Below, piece by piece: positions 10,240 to 18,042 of a DNA stretch of 64,000 bases; the stretch's first letter is position 1, and every line of letters starts with the position of its first letter. The stretch is from Fibrobacter sp. (GTDB lineage: Bacteria > Fibrobacterota > Fibrobacteria > Fibrobacterales > Fibrobacteraceae), in assembly GCA_017412605.1 (NCBI GenBank), contig JAFPWY010000007.1, positions 62,001 to 126,000 on the forward strand, in the 5' to 3' direction. The notes under the pieces were generated by a model. That model saw only the letters and a list, made by a program, of their open reading frames with translations, ran no database searches and was not told the origin of the DNA. The position numbers and the translations under genes were made by a program.

Positions 10240-10491
10240 ATGGCAGAACCTGAATTTAAGATAGACGATTTCGTTGACATCACAGACGTAAAATGCCCAA
10301 CCACTTTCGTAAAGGCGAAGGTCGCACTCGAAGAACTCGAGGACGGGCAGATTCTCTCGGTACGCCTGAACGACGGCGAGCCGGTGCAGAACGTGCCGCG
10401 CAGCATCAAGGAAGAAGGTCACGAAATTCTACGACTCACCGACAATCAGGACGGAACGTTTACGCTGATTGTGAAAAAAGTCGGGGACTAA
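10240..10491 (+). CDS. TusA/SirA-like sulfur carrier protein
   Basis: 83 residues. The opening DITDVKCPTTFVKAKVALEE matches the TusA fold, with the persulfide-bearing Cys at 19 in CPTT (CPxP in classical TusA). The ILSVRLNDGEPVQNVPRS block and the final TLIVKK strand complete the small two-layer fold. It should relay persulfide sulfur from a desulfurase to acceptor proteins. The ATG at 10240 follows GGAGG and is preferred to an upstream in-frame TTG at 10207, which lies inside the -10 box. First gene of the sulfur island. Confidence 0.9.
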   Translation: MAEPEFKIDDFVDITDVKCPTTFVKAKVALEELEDGQILSVRLNDGEPVQNVPRSIKEEGHEILRLTDNQDGTFTLIVKKVGD

Positions 10492-10506
10492 CCGAAAAAA
10501 GCAATT

Positions 10507-10537
10507 CCGGAATAAATCCGGGATGACAGCGAAAACA
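10507..10537. repeat. Short hairpin element with GGATGACAG tail
   Basis: CCGGA and TCCGG face each other around ATAAA at about 10508-10522, followed by GGGATGACAG. A second intergenic hairpin at 14228-14238 has a related tail (AGGATGACGG). Such elements look like small dispersed intergenic repeats. It lies between the TusA-like and ThiS-like genes and could modulate read-through or message stability; no T-run follows, so it is not a classical terminator. Confidence 0.4.
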
Positions 10538-10560
10538 TTTAACTAAAAGGAATTTCAAAC

Positions 10561-10767
10561 ATGTTTATTACTGTTGCAGGAAACAAGAAAGAATACAAGG
10601 ACGGCCTGACCGTCGCAGAACTTATTGAAGCCGAAAAGATTGACAACCCGCTCTACGTCACGGTTTCCGTGAACGAGGAATTTGTCGAAAACGGCACGTT
10701 CGAATCCACCACCCTCAAGGACGGCGATACCGTCGAGTTCCTCTACTTCATGGGAGGTGGCTGCTAA
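10561..10767 (+). CDS. ThiS/MoaD-like ubiquitin-fold sulfur carrier, ending GGGC
   Basis: 68 residues with a beta-grasp pattern: FITVAGNKKEY strand-turn, VAELIEAEKI helix, YVTVSVNEEFV strand, and LKDGDTVEFLYFMGGGC at the end. Carriers of this family normally end in Gly-Gly, which an E1 enzyme adenylates before thiocarboxylation. Here an additional Cys is encoded after the glycines, so the protein cannot be activated until that residue is removed. Two JAMM protease genes lie 0.9 and 1.4 kb downstream. It overlaps the E1 gene start (TAATG). Whether it serves cysteine, thiamine or another product is inferred; the neighbours favour cysteine. Confidence 0.88.
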   Translation: MFITVAGNKKEYKDGLTVAELIEAEKIDNPLYVTVSVNEEFVENGTFESTTLKDGDTVEFLYFMGGGC

Positions 10768-11576
10768 TGGCTTTTACTAACGAGCAACTCGAGCGCTATT
10801 CCCGCCACATCATCTTGAAAGAGGTGGGTGCGAAGGGCCAGAAGAAGCTGTTGAACGCGAAGGTGCTGATTATCGGTGCAGGAGGCCTGGGCGCCCCTGC
10901 CGCCATGTACCTTGCCGCGGCGGGCGTTGGCACGATCGGCATTGCCGATGCCGACGTCGTGGATCTCTCGAATTTGCAGCGCCAAATTATCCACGCCACC
11001 AAGGACGTGGGCAAGCTGAAGGTGCAGTCCGCAAAAGAGACGATGGAAGCGATGAACCCCGACGTGAAGGTGATTACGTACCACACGTTCGTCACGAGCG
11101 AGAACATCCTTGACCTCATCAAGGATTACGATTTCGTGATTGACGGGACAGACAATTTCCCGGCGAAGTTCCTCATCAACGATGCGTGCGTGATGGCGAA
11201 GAAGCCCTTCTCCCATGCGGGCATCATCCGCTTTCAGGGCCAGCTCATGACATACGTTCCGGGCCAGGGCCCCTGCTACCGCTGCGTGTTCAAGGAACCC
11301 CCTCCGAAAGACGCCGTGCCTACCTGCAAGCAGGCGGGCGTCATCGGCGCGATGGGCGGTGTCATCGGAAGTTTGCAGGCGATGGAAGCGGTCAAGTACA
11401 TCCTCGGCGTGGGCAACCTGCTCACGGGTTACCTGCTCACGTACAATGCGCTTACCATGGAATTCCGCAAGGTCAAACTCCCGACCAAGACGGACGACTG
11501 CGCGGTTTGCGGTACGCACCCGACTATCACGCAGCTGATTGACTACGAACAGGCGGTTTGCGACTTGAAGCACTAA
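10767..11576 (+). CDS. E1-like adenylyltransferase (MoeB/ThiF family)
   Basis: 269 residues. The Rossmann motif GAGGLGAPAAMYLAAAGVG (from residue 38), DADVVDLSNLQRQ, and ATP/Mg residues in DGTDNFPAKFLINDAC are intact. A zinc site is formed by C170 and C173 (PCYRC) with CAVCG near the end; the active-site Cys corresponds to C187 (PTCKQAG). It should adenylate the C-terminal glycine of the ubiquitin-like carrier encoded immediately upstream, to which it is translationally coupled. Unlike the paralogue at 12685, it has neither a carrier domain nor a rhodanese domain. Confidence 0.94.
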   Translation: MAFTNEQLERYSRHIILKEVGAKGQKKLLNAKVLIIGAGGLGAPAAMYLAAAGVGTIGIADADVVDLSNLQRQIIHATKDVGKLKVQSAKETMEAMNPDVKVITYHTFVTSENILDLIKDYDFVIDGTDNFPAKFLINDACVMAKKPFSHAGIIRFQGQLMTYVPGQGPCYRCVFKEPPPKDAVPTCKQAGVIGAMGGVIGSLQAMEAVKYILGVGNLLTGYLLTYNALTMEFRKVKLPTKTDDCAVCGTHPTITQLIDYEQAVCDLKH

Positions 11577-11578
11577 AT

Positions 11579-11632
11579 TAGACGAAAGAACGGGCTTCGC
11601 CCTATAGACGAAAGACGATAGATGGTCATAGG
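11579..11632. repeat. Heptad repeat with TTCG hairpin
   Basis: The sequence steps in 7-bp units: TAGACGA at 11579, and TAGACGA, AAGACGA, TAGATGG and TCATAGG from 11605 to 11632. A GGGC-TTC-GCCC hairpin (11592-11602) lies between. It sits in the gap between the E1 and JAMM genes and belongs to the same 7-bp-period family as the repeats at 16986, 20334, 40370 and 58821. Confidence 0.6.
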
Positions 11633-11643
11633 AATTATTTCAA

Positions 11644-12054
11644 ATGATTACATTACCGAAATCTGAATACGAAAAAATCCTCGCGCATGCGGAGAAGAAC
11701 CTCCCGGAAGAAGCCTGCGGGCTGATTGCGGGGCGTATCGAAGGAGCCGACAAGCATATCGAAAAGGTTTACCTGCTCACGAATATCGACCATTCGAACG
11801 AACATTTTTCGCTTGATCCCAAGGAACAGCTCGCAGCCATCAAGGACATGCGCCAAAACGGCCTTGCCCCGCTTGGCAACTGGCATTCCCATCCGGAATC
11901 GCCGTCGCGCCCCTCCGACGAAGACAAGCGTCTCGCTTATGATAGCAAGGCGAGCTACTTGATTCTTTCTCTACAGGACCGCGTAAAACCGGTGCTTAAT
12001 TCCTTCCACATCGAAGGTGTGGATGCCACCAACGAAGGCTTGGTGATAGAATAA
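11644..12054 (+). CDS. JAMM (Mpn+) metalloprotease, Mec+/RadC-like, copy 1
   Basis: 136 residues, single JAB/JAMM domain. The zinc-protease signature is complete: the catalytic Glu in PEEACGL (about E23), then H81-x-H83 in WHSHP, seven residues, and S91-x-x-D94 in SDED. Related bacterial proteases (Mec+) release cysteine from the C-terminus of the carrier CysO or trim extra residues beyond the Gly-Gly. It probably acts on the GGGC-ending carrier encoded at 10561. A 67-bp gap with a heptad repeat separates it from the E1 gene. Confidence 0.92.
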   Translation: MITLPKSEYEKILAHAEKNLPEEACGLIAGRIEGADKHIEKVYLLTNIDHSNEHFSLDPKEQLAAIKDMRQNGLAPLGNWHSHPESPSRPSDEDKRLAYDSKASYLILSLQDRVKPVLNSFHIEGVDATNEGLVIE

Positions 12055-12070
12055 AGGTCTCCGTACAACG

Positions 12071-12118
12071 GTGCCCCCGGGGTCCTTGTGAAATTCCGGC
12101 TCTGGGGGCACTTCTTTT
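12071..12118 (+). terminator. Possible terminator or attenuator between the JAMM genes
   Basis: GTGCCCCC (12071-12078) pairs with GGGGGCAC (12104-12111), extended by CCGG/CCGG inside, and is followed by TTCTTTT. This is terminator-like, although the T-run is interrupted. The second JAMM gene starts only 12 bp later, so its expression may be reduced or conditional relative to the first. Confidence 0.45.
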
Positions 12119-12129
12119 CGGAATTCTTT

Positions 12130-12525
12130 ATGGAAATCAACCTGAGCAAAAATTCGTCTTGTCAAATGGAGGTCGCCGCAAAAGCCGCCTATCCGGGCGA
12201 ATGCTGCGGTATTTTGCTCGGGAAAACCGGCGAAAACGGTGAAATTGAAGTTTTGGAAACCCGCGAAGCCCCCAACTTGATTCAGGGAACGCAGAAATCC
12301 GCCCATTTCAGGATAGATCCGCTGTTCCTTTACCAGGTGGAGCGCGAAATCGAAGGTAACGGAATCGAGGTAATCGGCTTTTACCATTCGCACCCTGATT
12401 GTGCGGCAGTCCCCTCGGATGAGGATTACGAGAACATGGTGCCAGGACTCGTCTATGTTATTTTATCCGTGACAAAAGACGGTGTCAAGGACATCAGAAA
12501 TTACAAAAAAGATACTAATTACTGA
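12130..12525 (+). CDS. JAMM (Mpn+) metalloprotease, copy 2
   Basis: 131 residues, intact JAMM domain: Glu in PGECCGILLG, H-x-H in YHSHP, seven-residue spacing, then SDED. It differs strongly from copy 1 and so is not a recent duplicate. Having two proteases beside two carrier domains (a free one ending GGGC and one fused ahead of an E1 domain) suggests one protease for each substrate, which is inference. The ATG at 12130 is chosen because homologues begin with a short strand and the upstream in-frame codons lie in the hairpin at 12071-12111; the ribosome site is weak (GGAA). Confidence 0.9.
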   Translation: MEINLSKNSSCQMEVAAKAAYPGECCGILLGKTGENGEIEVLETREAPNLIQGTQKSAHFRIDPLFLYQVEREIEGNGIEVIGFYHSHPDCAAVPSDEDYENMVPGLVYVILSVTKDGVKDIRNYKKDTNY

Positions 12526-12582: not shown

Positions 12583-12679
12583 AGTATTGGACAGGGGTAA
12601 AAACCAGTTCTATATTTCGGCTTGAAAAAAGTTCCAAGCATCTAATTTGTACGGAATAACACTTTTTTTTGTACGGAGG
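12583..12679 (+). promoter_or_regulatory. Promoter and leader of the MoaD-E1-rhodanese gene
   Basis: AGTATTGGAC (12583-12592) contains -35-like TTGGAC at 12587, then an 18-bp spacer, then -10-like TATATT at 12611-12616. The leader has TGTACGGA twice, at 12648-12655 and 12670-12677, 22 bp apart; the second is the ribosome site GTACGGAGG just before the GTG start. Promoter elements, spacing and leader motif match those of the TusA-like gene. TGTACGGA also occurs inverted at 12060-12067. Confidence 0.6.
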
Positions 12680-12684
12680 AAAAA

Positions 12685-14157
12685 GTGAAAATATACATAT
12701 CTGCTACTCTCAGGAATTTCTTTGGGAAAAATGCCCAGGTCGAGATACCCGCAAGTTCGGTGAGAAAGGCTCTCGCCATCCTTCTCGACATGTACCCGGA
12801 TGCCAAAAACGTCCTTTACGACGACAACAACAAGCTCCGGAACTTCATACAAATTTATATCAATGGCAAAAACCTGACGGTGGAGGCCCTTTGGGAAACG
12901 CCCCTGCCCGAAGATACCGAAATCCTGTTGCTGCCCGCCATCGCAGGCGGAGCACCGATTGTCGACAATACGACGGTAGACAGCCTCATTTCGGACGAAA
13001 GAAGAAAGGCGGTCTCGTTCGATGATTCCGAAGTGGAACGCTTCGGCAAACACCTGATGCTGCGTGAAATCGGTGTCAAGGGCCAAAAGCGCATCAAGGC
13101 TGCCAAAGTCGTTGTTGCGGGTGCAGGCGCGCTCGGTTCCCCGGTTATCCAGTACCTTGCCGCTGCGGGCGTGGGCACCATCAAGGTCATCGATTTTGAC
13201 GATGTCTCGCTCGAAAACCTGCAGAGTCAAGTACTTCACGGCACACGCGACATCAAGCGTCCGAAAGTCGCATCGGCCAAGGACAAGGTCAAGAACATCA
13301 ACAAGAACATCGAACTCGTCGCCGAAAAGGTAAAACTCGATTCCTCGAACATCCTGGAAGAAATCGACGGTTACGATTTGGTGGTCGACTGTTCCGACAA
13401 TTACAAGGCCCGCTACCTGATTAACGATGCGTGCGCATTGCACGGCATTCCCGTGGTATTCGGAGCCATCTACCAGTTCGAAGGCCAGGTAAGCGTCTTC
13501 AATCTGGATGGCGGCCCGTGCTACCGTTGCCAATTCCCTTCTCCCCCCTCGGCAGGGCTCATTCCGTCTTGCTCCGAGGGCGGAGCGATTAGCCCGCTTC
13601 CCGGCATTGTCGGAAGCATCCAGGCGAACGAAGCGCTCAAGCTCATCTTGGGTATCGGCGAGCATCTGAACGGAAAGCTCCTGCATATCGACAGCCTGAA
13701 CTTGACTTCGAGAATCCTCAAGGTGGAACGCAACAGGGCGTGCCCCATTTGCGGGAGCAACCCGACCATCACCGACGTGGAAGAAATCGACTATGAGGAA
13801 CTTTGCGGGCTCAAGACCGAAAATGAAATTCCGGTGGAAGGCTTTACGCCCGAAGAACTCGCGAAGAAAATCGAAAACGGCGACCCGATGACCATCGTGG
13901 ATGTACGCGAACCGCACGAACGCGCGATTCTGCGCTTCCCGAACGCCGTCGTGATTCCCATTGGACAGCTCGCCCGCAGGCAAAAAGAACTCGATCCGAA
14001 CAAGGATACCGTCTTTATCTGCAAGCAGGGCAAGCGCAGCATCCTCGCGATAAACACACTGCGCGAAGCCGGTTACACAGGCCCGCTTTACAACCTGAAG
14101 GGCGGTGTCGACGCCATGAAGGACATCATGTTCTCGCATGAAGGCGCATGGCTGTAA
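12685..14157 (+). CDS. Three-domain fusion: MoaD/ubiquitin-like + E1 (MoeB) + rhodanese
   Basis: 490 residues. Domain 1 (about 1-91) is a MoaD-like beta-grasp carrier reaching LLLPAIAGGAP, with Gly-Gly at 88-89 followed by more protein. Domain 2 (about 112-375) is an E1: GAGALGSPVIQYLAAAGVG, zinc pairs C279/C282 and C353/C356, probable catalytic C296. Domain 3 (about 385-485) is a rhodanese with active-site C446 in CKQGKRS. Carrier, activator and sulfur donor for thiocarboxylation are thus in one chain. To act as a thiocarboxylate the carrier would have to be cut after Gly89, a job suited to a JAMM protease. GTG start with GGAGG 5 bp upstream. Confidence 0.93.
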   Translation: MKIYISATLRNFFGKNAQVEIPASSVRKALAILLDMYPDAKNVLYDDNNKLRNFIQIYINGKNLTVEALWETPLPEDTEILLLPAIAGGAPIVDNTTVDSLISDERRKAVSFDDSEVERFGKHLMLREIGVKGQKRIKAAKVVVAGAGALGSPVIQYLAAAGVGTIKVIDFDDVSLENLQSQVLHGTRDIKRPKVASAKDKVKNINKNIELVAEKVKLDSSNILEEIDGYDLVVDCSDNYKARYLINDACALHGIPVVFGAIYQFEGQVSVFNLDGGPCYRCQFPSPPSAGLIPSCSEGGAISPLPGIVGSIQANEALKLILGIGEHLNGKLLHIDSLNLTSRILKVERNRACPICGSNPTITDVEEIDYEELCGLKTENEIPVEGFTPEELAKKIENGDPMTIVDVREPHERAILRFPNAVVIPIGQLARRQKELDPNKDTVFICKQGKRSILAINTLREAGYTGPLYNLKGGVDAMKDIMFSHEGAWL

Positions 14158-14174
14158 AATTTTTTCTTGCAAAA

Positions 14175-14289: not shown

Positions 14290-15255
14290 ATGGCAAATGA
14301 AGCTACAGAAAAGAAAACCGGCATCAATGCGCTTGGCGCAAAGGCTGCCTACAACCTGGCGAACGTCACCAAGACCAAGCCGCAATTTGGTGCGCTGACT
14401 CCCAAGTGGCTCACCAAGTTCCTTGAATTCAAGGGCCTTGAAACCGGTCTGTTCCGCGTGAACAAGGTCGTAGAAGGCGAAACTCCGCTGGACGTGCTCT
14501 GCAGCCAGACCAAGAAATCCGACATCATCCCGGAAGGCTACGTCGAATACGAAACCGAACCGCGCGAATACAAGCTCAATTCCATCTCCACGATCATCAA
14601 CGTCAACACCGCGATCGAAGATGTTTACAGCTCCCCGTATGACCAGGTCCAAGAACAGCTCGGCCTCGCCATCGAATCACTCCGCGAACGTCAGGAAAGC
14701 CAGCTCATCAACAATGACGATTACGGTCTGTTGAAGAACGTAGCCGACTCCCAGCGCATCCAGCCGATCCGCGCCGATGGCCGCCCGACTCCGGACGACC
14801 TCGACGAACTCATCACGAAGGTTTGGAAGGAACCGTCCTTCTTCCTCGCCCACCCGCGTGCCATTGCCGCCTTCGAGCGCGAATGCACCCGCCGTGGCGT
14901 GCCGCCTGTTGTCGTGGACATCGCCGGTGGCAAGTTCCTCACCTGGCGCGGCATTCCGCTGATTCCGACGAACAAGCTTCTCGTCGACGGCGTGAAGGAT
15001 CCGAAGTCCCAGGGCGGCAAGACGAACATCCTGCTCGTGCGTACCGGCGAAGCCAAGCGCGGCGTGATTGGCCTGTTCCAGGCCGGTCTCAAGAACGAAC
15101 ACTCTCGTGGCCTCTCCGTGCGTTTCCGCGGTATCGACAACAAGGGTGTCGCTTCTTACCTGCTTTCCCTGTACTGCTCTGCGGCTATCCTTGCCGACGA
15201 CGCCATTGCAGTCCTTGAAGATGTAGAGGTTGGCGAATACTATGACTACGAATAA
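14290..15255 (+). CDS. Family 2A encapsulin shell protein (SrpI-like)
   Basis: 321 residues with the HK97-type fold of SrpI-like encapsulins. Blocks I recognise from this family include ESLRERQESQLINN, RPTPDDLDELI, FFLAHPRAIAAFERECTRRG, FLTWRGIPLIPTNK, VGLFQAG, LSVRFRGIDNKG and the closing AILADDAIAVLEDVEVG. There is no cyclic-nucleotide domain, so it is type 2A rather than 2B. Many copies should assemble into a closed protein compartment. The next gene, overlapping by 14 bp, is a cysteine desulfurase with a long disordered N-terminus, the known cargo arrangement. Ribosome site AAGAGG is 9 bp upstream. No phage genes are nearby. Confidence 0.95.
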   Translation: MANEATEKKTGINALGAKAAYNLANVTKTKPQFGALTPKWLTKFLEFKGLETGLFRVNKVVEGETPLDVLCSQTKKSDIIPEGYVEYETEPREYKLNSISTIINVNTAIEDVYSSPYDQVQEQLGLAIESLRERQESQLINNDDYGLLKNVADSQRIQPIRADGRPTPDDLDELITKVWKEPSFFLAHPRAIAAFERECTRRGVPPVVVDIAGGKFLTWRGIPLIPTNKLLVDGVKDPKSQGGKTNILLVRTGEAKRGVIGLFQAGLKNEHSRGLSVRFRGIDNKGVASYLLSLYCSAAILADDAIAVLEDVEVGEYYDYE

Positions 15256-16984
15256 TCCAGATACCAGATCGCTGGAAGAACTCGCCGGAGTTCCCAATGC
15301 GGCTGAACTGGAGCAGTTGGCAAACGAGTACTTTCCGGATTTGACGGACAGTGCTTATGCAGCAACCCCCGCCGCCCCCGAAGTGCAGAACGCATCTGCA
15401 TCGCAGGGTGTAAGTGCCGCGCAGGGTGCCGCAGCCATCAGCCAGACTCCAGCCTTCGACTGGGAACACCCTTTTGCGACCTATGGCGACCAGCCGACCT
15501 CTTCGGCTCCGTTCGCATACGGCGGCAATTCTAGCGATACCTGGCTCAATACGGTTGAAGCCCCTGCGGTTCCTGAATCGCAGTTTGCATCACAGCTGAG
15601 CGATGTTCCGGCTGCGCCCGCACCTGCACAAGGCTACTCCCCGAAGGTTGTGTCCAAGACGCAGGCTGCCGAAGCGAACCGCCAGATCGACGCTCCGACA
15701 TCTCTCGGTGGCGACTCCGTGAAGACGGGTTCTGCAAACAGCGGCGCCAATTCCCGCAACGAATCTATCCGCATCGGTTCCAAGACGCTTGCGCAGATCC
15801 ATTCTGACTTCCCGATTCTTTCGAAGCAGGTCAACGGCCATCCGCTTGTCTGGCTCGATAACGGCGCTACGACGCAGCGTCCGCAGGTGGTGATTGATCG
15901 CCTCAAGTACTACTACGAAAACGAGAACTCCAACGTGCACCGTGGCGCCCATACGCTCGCGGCTGCATCGACGGATGCCTACGAAAACGCCCGTAACATC
16001 GTGCGTGACTTTATTGGGGCCCCGTCTTCGCAGGAAATCGTATTCGTGCGCGGTACCACTGAAGCAATCAACCTGGTGGCTAACGCCTACGTGAAGCCGA
16101 CACTCCAGCCGGGTGACGAAATCATCGTCTCCATCCTGGAACACCACGCGAACATCGTGCCGTGGCAGCTTGTCGCCGAAGAAACAGGCGCCATCATCAA
16201 GGTGATTCCCTGCGATTCTACCGGCCAGCTCAAGCTCCACGATTACGAGGCATTGTTCACCAAGCGCACCAAGTTCGTTTCCGTGACTCATGTCTCGAAC
16301 GTGCTCGGCACTGTGACTCCGATTGAAGAGCTCATCGCCATTGCCCACAGGCACGGTGTGAGAATCCTCATTGACGGCGCTCAGTCTATCGCTCACATTC
16401 CGGTGAACGTCGCCGCCCTCGACGCAGATTTCTTCGTGTTCTCCGGACATAAGGTGTTTGCCCCGACCGGTATCGGCGTTGTCTATGGCAAGAAGGAATT
16501 GCTGGAAGCGGCAAGACCTTACCATGGCGGCGGTAACATGATTGCCGACGTGACGTTCGAACGTACGATTTACAACGGAATTCCGAACAAATTCGAAGCG
16601 GGAACGGGAAGCATCGCCGACGCTGTTGGCTTGGGTGCTGCCCTCCAGTACCTCTCCGAAATCGGGATGCCGTGTGTATTCCGCTGGGAACATGAACTGT
16701 TGCAGTACGGCCTCAAGGAACTGAAGACTGTCAAGGGTCTGCATCTTGTAGGTACGGCACTCAACAAGGCTTCTGCGCTTGCCTTCAAGCTCGACGGTTA
16801 TTCCGACGAAGAAGTGGGCAAGAGGCTCGACGCATACGGCGTTGCCGTACGTACCGGGCATCACTGCGCTCAGCCAGTTCTCCGCCATTTCGGCTACGAA
16901 AGTACCGTGCGCCCGACCCTCGCACTGTACAACTCACCGGATGACATCGACGCACTCGTGAGGGCGTTGAAGACATTCGCATAA
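15242..16984 (+). CDS. Encapsulin cargo: SufS-type cysteine desulfurase with disordered N-terminal targeting region
   Basis: 580 residues. About 1-180 is rich in Ala, Pro, Ser and Gln and lacks predicted structure, apart from short conserved-looking blocks such as LEQLANEYFPDL (about 24-34) and FDWEHPF. About 184-580 is a class V PLP enzyme: HHANIVPW (about 301), the PLP lysine K404 in SGHKVFAP and the persulfide Cys C542 in RTGHHCAQPV. It turns cysteine into alanine plus persulfide sulfur. The extension should anchor it inside the encapsulin. The ATG at 15242 overlaps the shell gene end; an in-frame TTG at 15230 lacks a suitable ribosome site. Confidence 0.95.
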   Translation: MTTNNPDTRSLEELAGVPNAAELEQLANEYFPDLTDSAYAATPAAPEVQNASASQGVSAAQGAAAISQTPAFDWEHPFATYGDQPTSSAPFAYGGNSSDTWLNTVEAPAVPESQFASQLSDVPAAPAPAQGYSPKVVSKTQAAEANRQIDAPTSLGGDSVKTGSANSGANSRNESIRIGSKTLAQIHSDFPILSKQVNGHPLVWLDNGATTQRPQVVIDRLKYYYENENSNVHRGAHTLAAASTDAYENARNIVRDFIGAPSSQEIVFVRGTTEAINLVANAYVKPTLQPGDEIIVSILEHHANIVPWQLVAEETGAIIKVIPCDSTGQLKLHDYEALFTKRTKFVSVTHVSNVLGTVTPIEELIAIAHRHGVRILIDGAQSIAHIPVNVAALDADFFVFSGHKVFAPTGIGVVYGKKELLEAARPYHGGGNMIADVTFERTIYNGIPNKFEAGTGSIADAVGLGAALQYLSEIGMPCVFRWEHELLQYGLKELKTVKGLHLVGTALNKASALAFKLDGYSDEEVGKRLDAYGVAVRTGHHCAQPVLRHFGYESTVRPTLALYNSPDDIDALVRALKTFA

Positions 16985-16985
16985 C

Positions 16986-17071
16986 AGGTCGCGTCTTCGG
17001 ACGCTTTGAGTGATGAGGTCGCGCCTGCGGTGCTTTGAGCCGCAGGCGAACGACCTCGTACCTCATACCTA
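16986..17071. repeat. Hairpin array and heptad repeat between desulfurase and acetyltransferase genes
   Basis: Two related units beginning AGGTCGCG and ending GCTTTGAG lie in tandem (16986-17010 and 17016-17039). GCGTC-TTCG-GACGC (16991-17004) forms one hairpin. GAGGTCG (17015-17021) pairs with CGACCTC (17051-17057), enclosing GCCTGCGG/CCGCAGGC. Then the 7-bp units CGACCTC, GTACCTC and ATACCTA run from 17051 to 17071. The strong structure could uncouple SAT expression from the desulfurase. Confidence 0.6.
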
Positions 17072-17082
17072 TTGGAGCTTTC

Positions 17083-18042
17083 ATGCACGAACTTATCCAA
17101 GAATCTGAAGTTGAAAAAGCGGTACAGACTATTTTTGCCGATTACAATCGCGGCAAGCATATCGACAATATCGACATCTACAATCGACCCGACCAGGCCG
17201 AAATCCAGACGATTTTGCAAAACCTGATTCGTGTGGTTTATCCCGGCCACTTCAGAGACCGCACACACAAGATTTACAACCCGAAAAACAGCTTCGCGGT
17301 CATTATCGAAGACACCTTTTACCACCTCCACAAGCAGGTGGCCATCGCGCTGGATTACTGCAAGCTCCGCGGCACCATGACATCCGACGAGCGCAAGATC
17401 GAAAGCTACCGCATCTGCAAGGAATTCTTCGCAAAGATACCGCAAGTCCGCGAATTCCTCGAAACCGACTTGCATGCCGCCTACGATGGCGACCCTGCCG
17501 CCGGCTGCCTTGACGAAATCATCCTCGCGTATCCAGGCCTTATGACGACAACGATTTTCCGCATCGCCCATGAACTTTACCTGTTGCATGTGCCGGTACT
17601 GCCGCGCCTCATGACCGAATACGCGCATTCCAAAACGGGAATCGACATTCACCCCGGAGCATCCATCGGCAAGTACTTCTTTATCGACCACGGCACCGGA
17701 ATCGTGATTGGCGAAACCGCAGTCATCGGCAAGAACGTGAAGATTTACCAGGGCGTCACGCTAGGTGCACTTTCGACAAGGGGCGGCCAGCGACTTTCCG
17801 GCAAAAAACGTCACCCGACCATACGGGACAACGTAACGATTTATGCGGGTGCATCTATCCTTGGCGGTGAAACCGTCATCGGTGAAAACGCGGTCATCGG
17901 CGGCAACGCCTTTATCACGAGTTCCGTAGCCGCAAACACTCGCGTGAGCATGAAAAACCTTGAAATGGACTACGTCTCTACCGACAATAAACACAAGACG
18001 GAAGAGATTACCCAAAGCGAGGAATGGTATTACATTATTTAA
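17083..18042 (+). CDS. Serine O-acetyltransferase (EpsC/SrpH type)
   Basis: 319 residues. An N-terminal helical region (about 1-185) precedes a left-handed beta-helix of hexapeptide repeats: IDIHPGASIGKYFFIDHGTG, VVIGETAVIG-type turns and VTLGALSTRGG. The catalytic His lies in FIDHGTGIVIGE. It makes O-acetylserine, the acceptor for sulfide or a carrier thiocarboxylate in cysteine synthesis. The chain ends in YYII, and a C-terminal Ile is what CysE uses to dock into cysteine synthase. SAT genes commonly accompany family 2A encapsulins. The ATG at 17083 is chosen for its TTGGAG ribosome site; homologues begin here. Confidence 0.93.
   Translation: MHELIQESEVEKAVQTIFADYNRGKHIDNIDIYNRPDQAEIQTILQNLIRVVYPGHFRDRTHKIYNPKNSFAVIIEDTFYHLHKQVAIALDYCKLRGTMTSDERKIESYRICKEFFAKIPQVREFLETDLHAAYDGDPAAGCLDEIILAYPGLMTTTIFRIAHELYLLHVPVLPRLMTEYAHSKTGIDIHPGASIGKYFFIDHGTGIVIGETAVIGKNVKIYQGVTLGALSTRGGQRLSGKKRHPTIRDNVTIYAGASILGGETVIGENAVIGGNAFITSSVAANTRVSMKNLEMDYVSTDNKHKTEEITQSEEWYYII

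Follow-up and report, generated by a model that had tools for sequence, protein, structure and literature searches.

We found that a rumen Fibrobacter encodes a single 490-amino-acid protein in which a MoaD/CysO-like carrier domain, an E1 (MoeB/ThiF) domain and a rhodanese domain follow one another, and the comparative evidence suggests that this fusion is probably a pro-carrier cut by a JAMM protease. Cleavage after Gly89 is favoured over a permanent block of the carrier by the caged tails of separately encoded homologues, the linkage of the fusions to JAMM genes and the joint loss of Gly89, the E1 cysteine and JAMM in one lineage, all of which are features read from sequence. Because the carrier is made as the front end of its own loading enzyme, it is probably inactive until a neighbouring protease frees it. 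If so, it would be a clear example, from bacteria, of a ubiquitin-like protein that its own E1 keeps caged through fusion. Positions below refer to the window, the whole 64,000-nucleotide stretch of DNA that was analysed.

Architecture and distribution of the fusion

The fusion is encoded by one uninterrupted open reading frame (positions 12685–14157, plus strand, as for all features below unless stated), which starts with a GTG codon and has a strong Shine–Dalgarno sequence upstream (TACGGAGGAAAAAGTG). The β-grasp carrier domain (residues 1–89; 12685–12951) ends in PAIAGG and matched Pfam ThiS at residues 4–89 (E = 3.5e-4, slightly below the curated cut-off) and NCBIfam SAMP1 at residues 7–89 (E = 6e-12, below cut-off). 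In a search of PDB sequences, residues 1–92 matched the MoaD-related protein 1v8c, archaeal SAMP1 homologues and Mycobacterium tuberculosis CysO (3dwg_C). The codons for Gly88–Gly89 lie at 12946–12951, with the putative cleavage point after Gly89, and are followed by a linker of species-variable length (residues 90–110; 12952–13014). The E1 adenylation domain (residues 112–357; 13018–13755) matched Pfam ThiF at residues 122–354 (E = 3e-75) and contains the active-site Cys296 (13570–13572) and zinc cysteine pairs at 279/282 and 353/356; in a fold search it was 38% identical to MoeB (1jw9), with Uba4 as the top match. The rhodanese domain (residues 388–478; 13846–14118) matched its Pfam family over the same residues (E = 8e-15) and carries Cys446 (14020–14022) within the loop CKQGKRS. 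The protein thus has the domain order, nucleotide-site residues, zinc cysteines, E1 cysteine and rhodanese cysteine of the E1–rhodanese sulfurtransferases MoeZ, MoeBR, Uba4 and MOCS3, and, as its scores fell below the curated NCBIfam equivalog cut-offs, we regard it as a relative of these proteins and not as a listed equivalog.

These domains agree with the original prediction, made from the letters of the DNA, that carrier, E1 and rhodanese share one polypeptide with an internal Gly-Gly, so that substrate, activator and sulfur donor are joined in one chain. The predicted run of AIAGG at residues 88–89 into AP was also borne out, as residues 84–91 read P-A-I-A-G-G-A-P. An AlphaFold2 model built from a 45-sequence alignment had confident domains (mean pLDDT 84, pTM 0.71). 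Carrier residues 1–80 mostly scored about 88–93, and residues 88–98, at the start of the linker, fell below 50 and are predicted to be flexible, which suits an exposed, flexible cleavage site. Inspection by eye revealed no in-frame ATG, GTG or TTG with a Shine–Dalgarno sequence directly past Gly89 from which the E1–rhodanese portion alone could be started. We also observed a 520-codon antisense open frame (12610–14172, minus strand) that spans nearly the whole fusion gene; it has no gene-like signs and is probably an effect of codon usage.

To determine how widespread the architecture is, we scanned 84,980 species genomes and kept the best 80 E1–rhodanese relatives, chosen by E1 patterns. In-frame carrier–E1–rhodanese fusions accounted for 64 of these 80, from many phyla, with hosts that included Fibrobacter, rumen Lachnospiraceae, Succinivibrionaceae, Selenomonas, Lentisphaerae and Acidobacteria, and within the genus the fusion was present in 16 of 37 genomes. 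Most of these genomes are metagenome assemblies and the sequences are mutually related. Conservation of the Gly-Gly in homologues had been named beforehand as a point on which the prediction could fail, and the Gly-Gly was retained in 61 of the 64 fusions. Among 59 non-redundant fusions, Gly88 was conserved in 58, Gly89 in 56 and the E1 Cys296 in 57, and Cys446, the predicted rhodanese active cysteine, was invariant (59/59). Mean conservation across carrier residues 1–83 was 53% in this set, and Gly88–Gly89 ranked with the most conserved carrier positions. All aligned fusions of the genus had PAIAGG followed by Ala-Pro or Ser-Pro, after which the sequences differed in length.

Fusions from rumen Lachnospiraceae were up to about 75% identical to the window protein, and this high identity suggests transfer of the operon between phyla in the gut. 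The entire operon is common to Fibrobacter and rumen Lachnospiraceae at high identity (L067–L106), and a strain in culture, Pseudobutyrivibrio xylanivorans MZ8 (L073), is among its carriers. A quick tree of the E1–rhodanese portion, which has many open forks and from which the ancestral state (fused or split) cannot be read, implied at least three changes between fused and split forms and two losses of the Gly-Gly.

Masked carrier tails and linkage to JAMM proteases

We found that the carrier is separately encoded in 11 relatives from the scan and on one Aliarcobacter plasmid, and that none of these 12 carriers stops at Gly-Gly. Their tails, written up to the stop codon, were GGI (twice), GGVGKAV, GGAS, GGNGE, GGVDE, GGGAGRA and GGRETPRT, plus four longer ones, and thus ranged from one residue past the Gly-Gly to dozens. 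A second carrier encoded next to the fusion operon, a free-standing ThiS-like protein of 68 amino acids (10561–10767), likewise ends in FMGGGC, and all 28 carriers of this kind extend past the Gly-Gly (GGGR, GGGQ, GGGC and others). By contrast, MoaD encoded beside MoaE terminated exactly at GG in all six cases and thiazole-type ThiS did so in 11 of 12. Three plasmid MoaD proteins of YcaO clusters also stopped at GG; these come from a contrast set of RiPP-type plasmid loci (Pantoea, Paraburkholderia and Legionella) with MoaD and E1 as separate genes, YcaO and no annotated JAMM nearby. A Fisher test on the tail counts gave 3e-15, an indicative figure only, as the sequences are related. The one thiazole-type exception, which ends in GGGFHA (L165; G060, C649), comes from a genome with a JAMM gene on another contig. 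Carriers in JAMM operons are thus made with the glycine masked, a general pattern in these sequences of which the fusion is the extreme case. For annotation, JAMM-operon carriers in this data set do not stop at Gly-Gly and carriers elsewhere nearly always do.

HcyS of Wolinella and the siderophore carriers QbsE and PdtH bear short C-terminal caps that are trimmed by JAMM. Like the fusion, these carriers have a Gly-Gly masked by extra residues and a JAMM in the operon, and the 68-amino-acid ThiS-like protein of the window is of the same kind; their caps are short, whereas that of the fusion is the entire 400-residue E1–rhodanese. Operons of short-capped carriers have been described, with operon types 4c and 4e resembling the CysM–JAMM–carrier loci (PMC1779556).

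Two JAMM genes lie upstream of the fusion, and both products carry the full H-x-H-x7-S-x2-D zinc motif of JAMM/MPN+ proteins. JAMM2 (Prok-JAB; 12130–12525; motif HSHPDCAAVPSDED), the candidate cutter of the fusion, was listed as an open reading frame from GTG 12088 (12088–12525), with ATG 12130 the likelier start. JAMM1 (11644–12054; motif HSHPESPSRPSDED) belongs to the second carrier module (10240–12054), in which it follows a TusA-like sulfurtransferase (10240–10491; open reading frame from TTG 10207; PF01206, E = 1.5e-19), the ThiS-like carrier and a MoeB-like E1 that lacks a rhodanese (10767–11576). This module, which resembles type 4e operons, shifts position relative to the fusion operon across the genus, and in L021 and L019 its E1 has no adjoining carrier or JAMM. 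The gene order JAMM2–fusion–encapsulin–cysteine desulfurase–serine acetyltransferase is conserved in the genus. The fixed JAMM2–fusion order and the mobility of the JAMM1 module together assign JAMM2 to the fusion and JAMM1 to the small carrier, apart from the exceptions given below.

Of the 61 Gly-Gly fusions, 55 had within 4 kb a JAMM gene whose zinc motif is intact. Among the other six, three are truncated by contig ends (L064, L086 and L092), and three (L099, L102 and L105) each have one JAMM, of JAMM1 type, elsewhere in the locus or genome. The sole JAMM of a further Gly-Gly fusion, L098, is also of JAMM1 type, and these four cases indicate that the pairing of JAMM2 with the fusion is not strict. 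The original prediction took both JAMM copies as partners of the fusion; both genes are present, but synteny ties JAMM2 alone to it, the four JAMM1-only genomes excepted. All 16 fusion genomes of the genus have at least two JAMMs and an encapsulin, and fusion-less genomes have at most one JAMM. Within the genus, however, this linkage is that of a single co-inherited block, which counts against the pro-carrier case.

Loss of the Gly-Gly and alternative readings

Three fusions lack an intact Gly-Gly. Two rumen planctomycete fusions, L103 and L104, have AGES in place of AGG together with a Cys-rich linker, and they alone have lost the E1 active-site Cys296, which is replaced by Asp. We detected neither a JAMM nor another ThiS/MoaD match in their genomes, which are metagenomic assemblies. 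As sister sequences on a long branch, they represent a single loss event, and the co-loss of Gly89, the E1 cysteine and JAMM is expected if all three serve one function. The third, L116, has lost the whole Gly-Gly and kept the E1 cysteine; the JAMM of its genome lies in the locus of a Gly-Gly-bearing paralogue, L127. All three keep the carrier domain and the rhodanese cysteine, and their persistence indicates that the carrier domain can function without a free tail. Permanent blocking seems, judging from these sequences, to have occurred in L103, L104 and L116. In the fusions L103 (7141–8778) and L104 (3–1562) the linker is long and rich in cysteine, with imperfect 27-bp tandem repeats (CDSCCDAD-like); the product possibly stores sulfur on its many thiols, or is a pseudo-E1 that has been retained because of the rhodanese.

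These cases bear on an alternative in which the carrier domain is permanently blocked throughout and acts as a docking or regulatory module, with the E1–rhodanese working in trans on the adjacent ThiS-like protein or on thiazole ThiS. Retention of the domain and the rhodanese cysteine in the Gly89-less L103 and L104 and the Gly-Gly-less L116 is consistent with this reading, as is the presence of another carrier, adjoined by its own E1, at most Fibrobacter loci. However, the Gly-Gly is nearly fully conserved in the other 61 fusions, the split homologues show that this domain also occurs as a carrier in its own right, and L103 and L104 also lack the E1 cysteine and JAMM, suggesting that those parts serve a free tail. 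We consider a general block unlikely for these reasons.

Somewhat less likely still is modification of proteins in the manner of SAMP or Urm1, in which the freed carrier would be conjugated to proteins and removed again by JAMM. Direct conjugation of such carriers without an E2 is possible. Sub-threshold NCBIfam matches to SAMP1, SAMP-activating E1 and desampylase models point in this direction, as do the top fold match to Uba4 and the activity of HvJAMM1 on SAMP1 conjugates (PMC4443979). The neighbouring genes, by contrast, encode a cysteine desulfurase, a serine acetyltransferase and, in other loci, a cysteine synthase.

A role as the carrier of molybdopterin synthase, suggested only by the family names MoaD and MoeB, was rejected: a search that detected MoaE in 11 of 14 control genomes found it in none of the 37 genomes of the genus, so molybdopterin synthesis is not the task of this carrier, whose nearest structures are of CysO/SAMP1 type. 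We likewise rejected a frameshift or assembly artefact, to which the TAATG overlap of the Aliarcobacter carrier and E1 genes (where a single indel could fuse them) lends some plausibility, as the same frame is open in 16 of 37 genus genomes and in 64 scan loci, which represent many phyla and were assembled independently.

Proposed sulfur source and destination, and relation to known systems

Downstream of the fusion, we identified a family 2A encapsulin shell protein (SrpI-like; 14290–15255; PF19307 and NF041162, the latter with E = 7.6e-144, over cut-off), followed, as in family 2A operons, by a SufS-like cargo cysteine desulfurase with a long N-terminal extension (15230–16984). The desulfurase scored over cut-off for TIGR01979 and below it for NF041166 (E = 4e-228; 759.5 bits against a cut-off of 800). 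Next is a serine O-acetyltransferase (CysE/EpsC-like by NCBIfam; 17083–18042), for which ATG 17083 is a likelier start than the TTG at 17035. The original prediction was right about the one-chain layout and overlooked both this operon and the wide spread of the architecture. Published family 2A encapsulin–cysteine desulfurase operons, described without mention of ThiF, have in common with this one the shell, the cargo desulfurase, a serine acetyltransferase and a rhodanese (PMC8346489, PMC8049743), but here the rhodanese forms the C-terminal part of the carrier–E1–rhodanese protein, with JAMM alongside.

Together, these observations suggest how a JAMM-cut pro-carrier might work. In the newly made chain, the E1–rhodanese would block the C-terminal glycine of the CysO/MoaD-type domain that it is later to load. 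JAMM2, most likely, would hydrolyse the Gly89–Ala90 bond, yielding free carrier-GG and E1–rhodanese in a 1:1 ratio. The E1 would then adenylate the freed Gly89 carboxylate, and sulfane sulfur on the rhodanese Cys446 would pass to the carrier as a thiocarboxylate, by analogy with the chemistry of MoeZ, MOCS3 and Uba4. The operon partners suggest the encapsulin/cysteine desulfurase store as the sulfur source. The acceptor may be O-acetylserine from the serine acetyltransferase, which a CysK/CysM enzyme would convert to cysteine as in the CysO–CysM–Mec pathway, and JAMM2 could also release the product, although this is the weakest step. As a whole, a protease-gated relay, in which JAMM2 frees the carrier from an inactive single chain and later releases cysteine, encapsulin sulfur is tapped and the module has moved between rumen phyla, is a tentative proposal that we think rather doubtful in full. 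If true, proteolysis would switch on sulfur recovery from a protein compartment. Family 2A encapsulins hold cysteine desulfurase, and a carrier, an E1–rhodanese and a JAMM provide a concrete candidate exit route for the sulfur, in a set of genes that is associated with a sulfur-storing shell and has spread among many gut bacteria.

Evidence for the destination of the sulfur comes mainly from relatives. Loci of the order CysM–JAMM–carrier–E1–rhodanese, with or without encapsulin, occur in Acidobacteria, Desulfovibrio, Spirochaetes, Lentisphaerae and others, and relatives outside the rumen clade have CysM and JAMM immediately upstream of the carrier. The Aliarcobacter plasmid carries a full set of cysteine synthase, JAMM, carrier, E1, rhodanese, encapsulin 2A, desulfurase, serine acetyltransferase and CysK. 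Cysteine synthase lies outside the locus in the genus and in most of the rumen clade; we found no dedicated CysM in the Fibrobacter loci or in the genome of the window, which encodes three generic CysK-type enzymes elsewhere. One of these (L049) is 74–76% identical to the CysK in two fusion loci. Given the CysM-linked relatives, the Aliarcobacter set and the genomic CysK, cysteine is the end product that we favour, with the chances about evenly balanced.

Compared with the CysO–MoeZR–CysM–Mec system of M. tuberculosis (PMC3227635), the Fibrobacter locus likewise encodes together a Gly-Gly-bearing CysO-type carrier, an E1–rhodanese and a JAMM, and many fusion relatives have a linked CysM. CysO, however, is a separate protein ending in GG, whereas the Fibrobacter carrier is fused to its activator, and the Fibrobacter operon adds a serine acetyltransferase, an encapsulin and a cysteine desulfurase and lacks CysM. 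Cutting of MoaD fusions after the Gly-Gly is already known: M. tuberculosis MoaX is cleaved after Gly82 and is active only once cleaved (PMC4326299), and the Deinococcus JAMM DR0402 cleaves a MoaD–MoaE fusion (PMC8832034). In MoaX and the Deinococcus protein (DR2607), as here, a MoaD-type domain precedes another domain with a conserved internal Gly-Gly between them, but there the carrier is fused to its user, MoaE, and here to its activator and sulfur donor.

The architecture itself is not new, as MoaD–MoeB–rhodanese fusions have been reported in archaea and Acidobacteria (clusters 356.x; PMC11237513). The domain order on the chain is identical, and Acidobacteria forms were among the relatives that we found (L109–L114 and L131). 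In the passages on those fusions that we consulted, neither a JAMM nor a caged Gly-Gly nor an encapsulin neighbourhood is described, whereas the rumen forms lie in encapsulin operons, mostly without linked CysM. We found no report of a link between encapsulin and MoaD in the non-subscription literature searched, and the association of a caged carrier–activator fusion with an encapsulin sulfur system thus looks unreported.

Two loci depart from the usual arrangement. In a Lentisphaerae locus (L108, 8354–10288) a tandem pair of family 2A encapsulin genes separates the fusion from the desulfurase, and on the Aliarcobacter cibarius plasmid (L055, 9264–11986) an IS5-type element splits E1 from rhodanese, so that the E1–rhodanese gene is interrupted in this strain.
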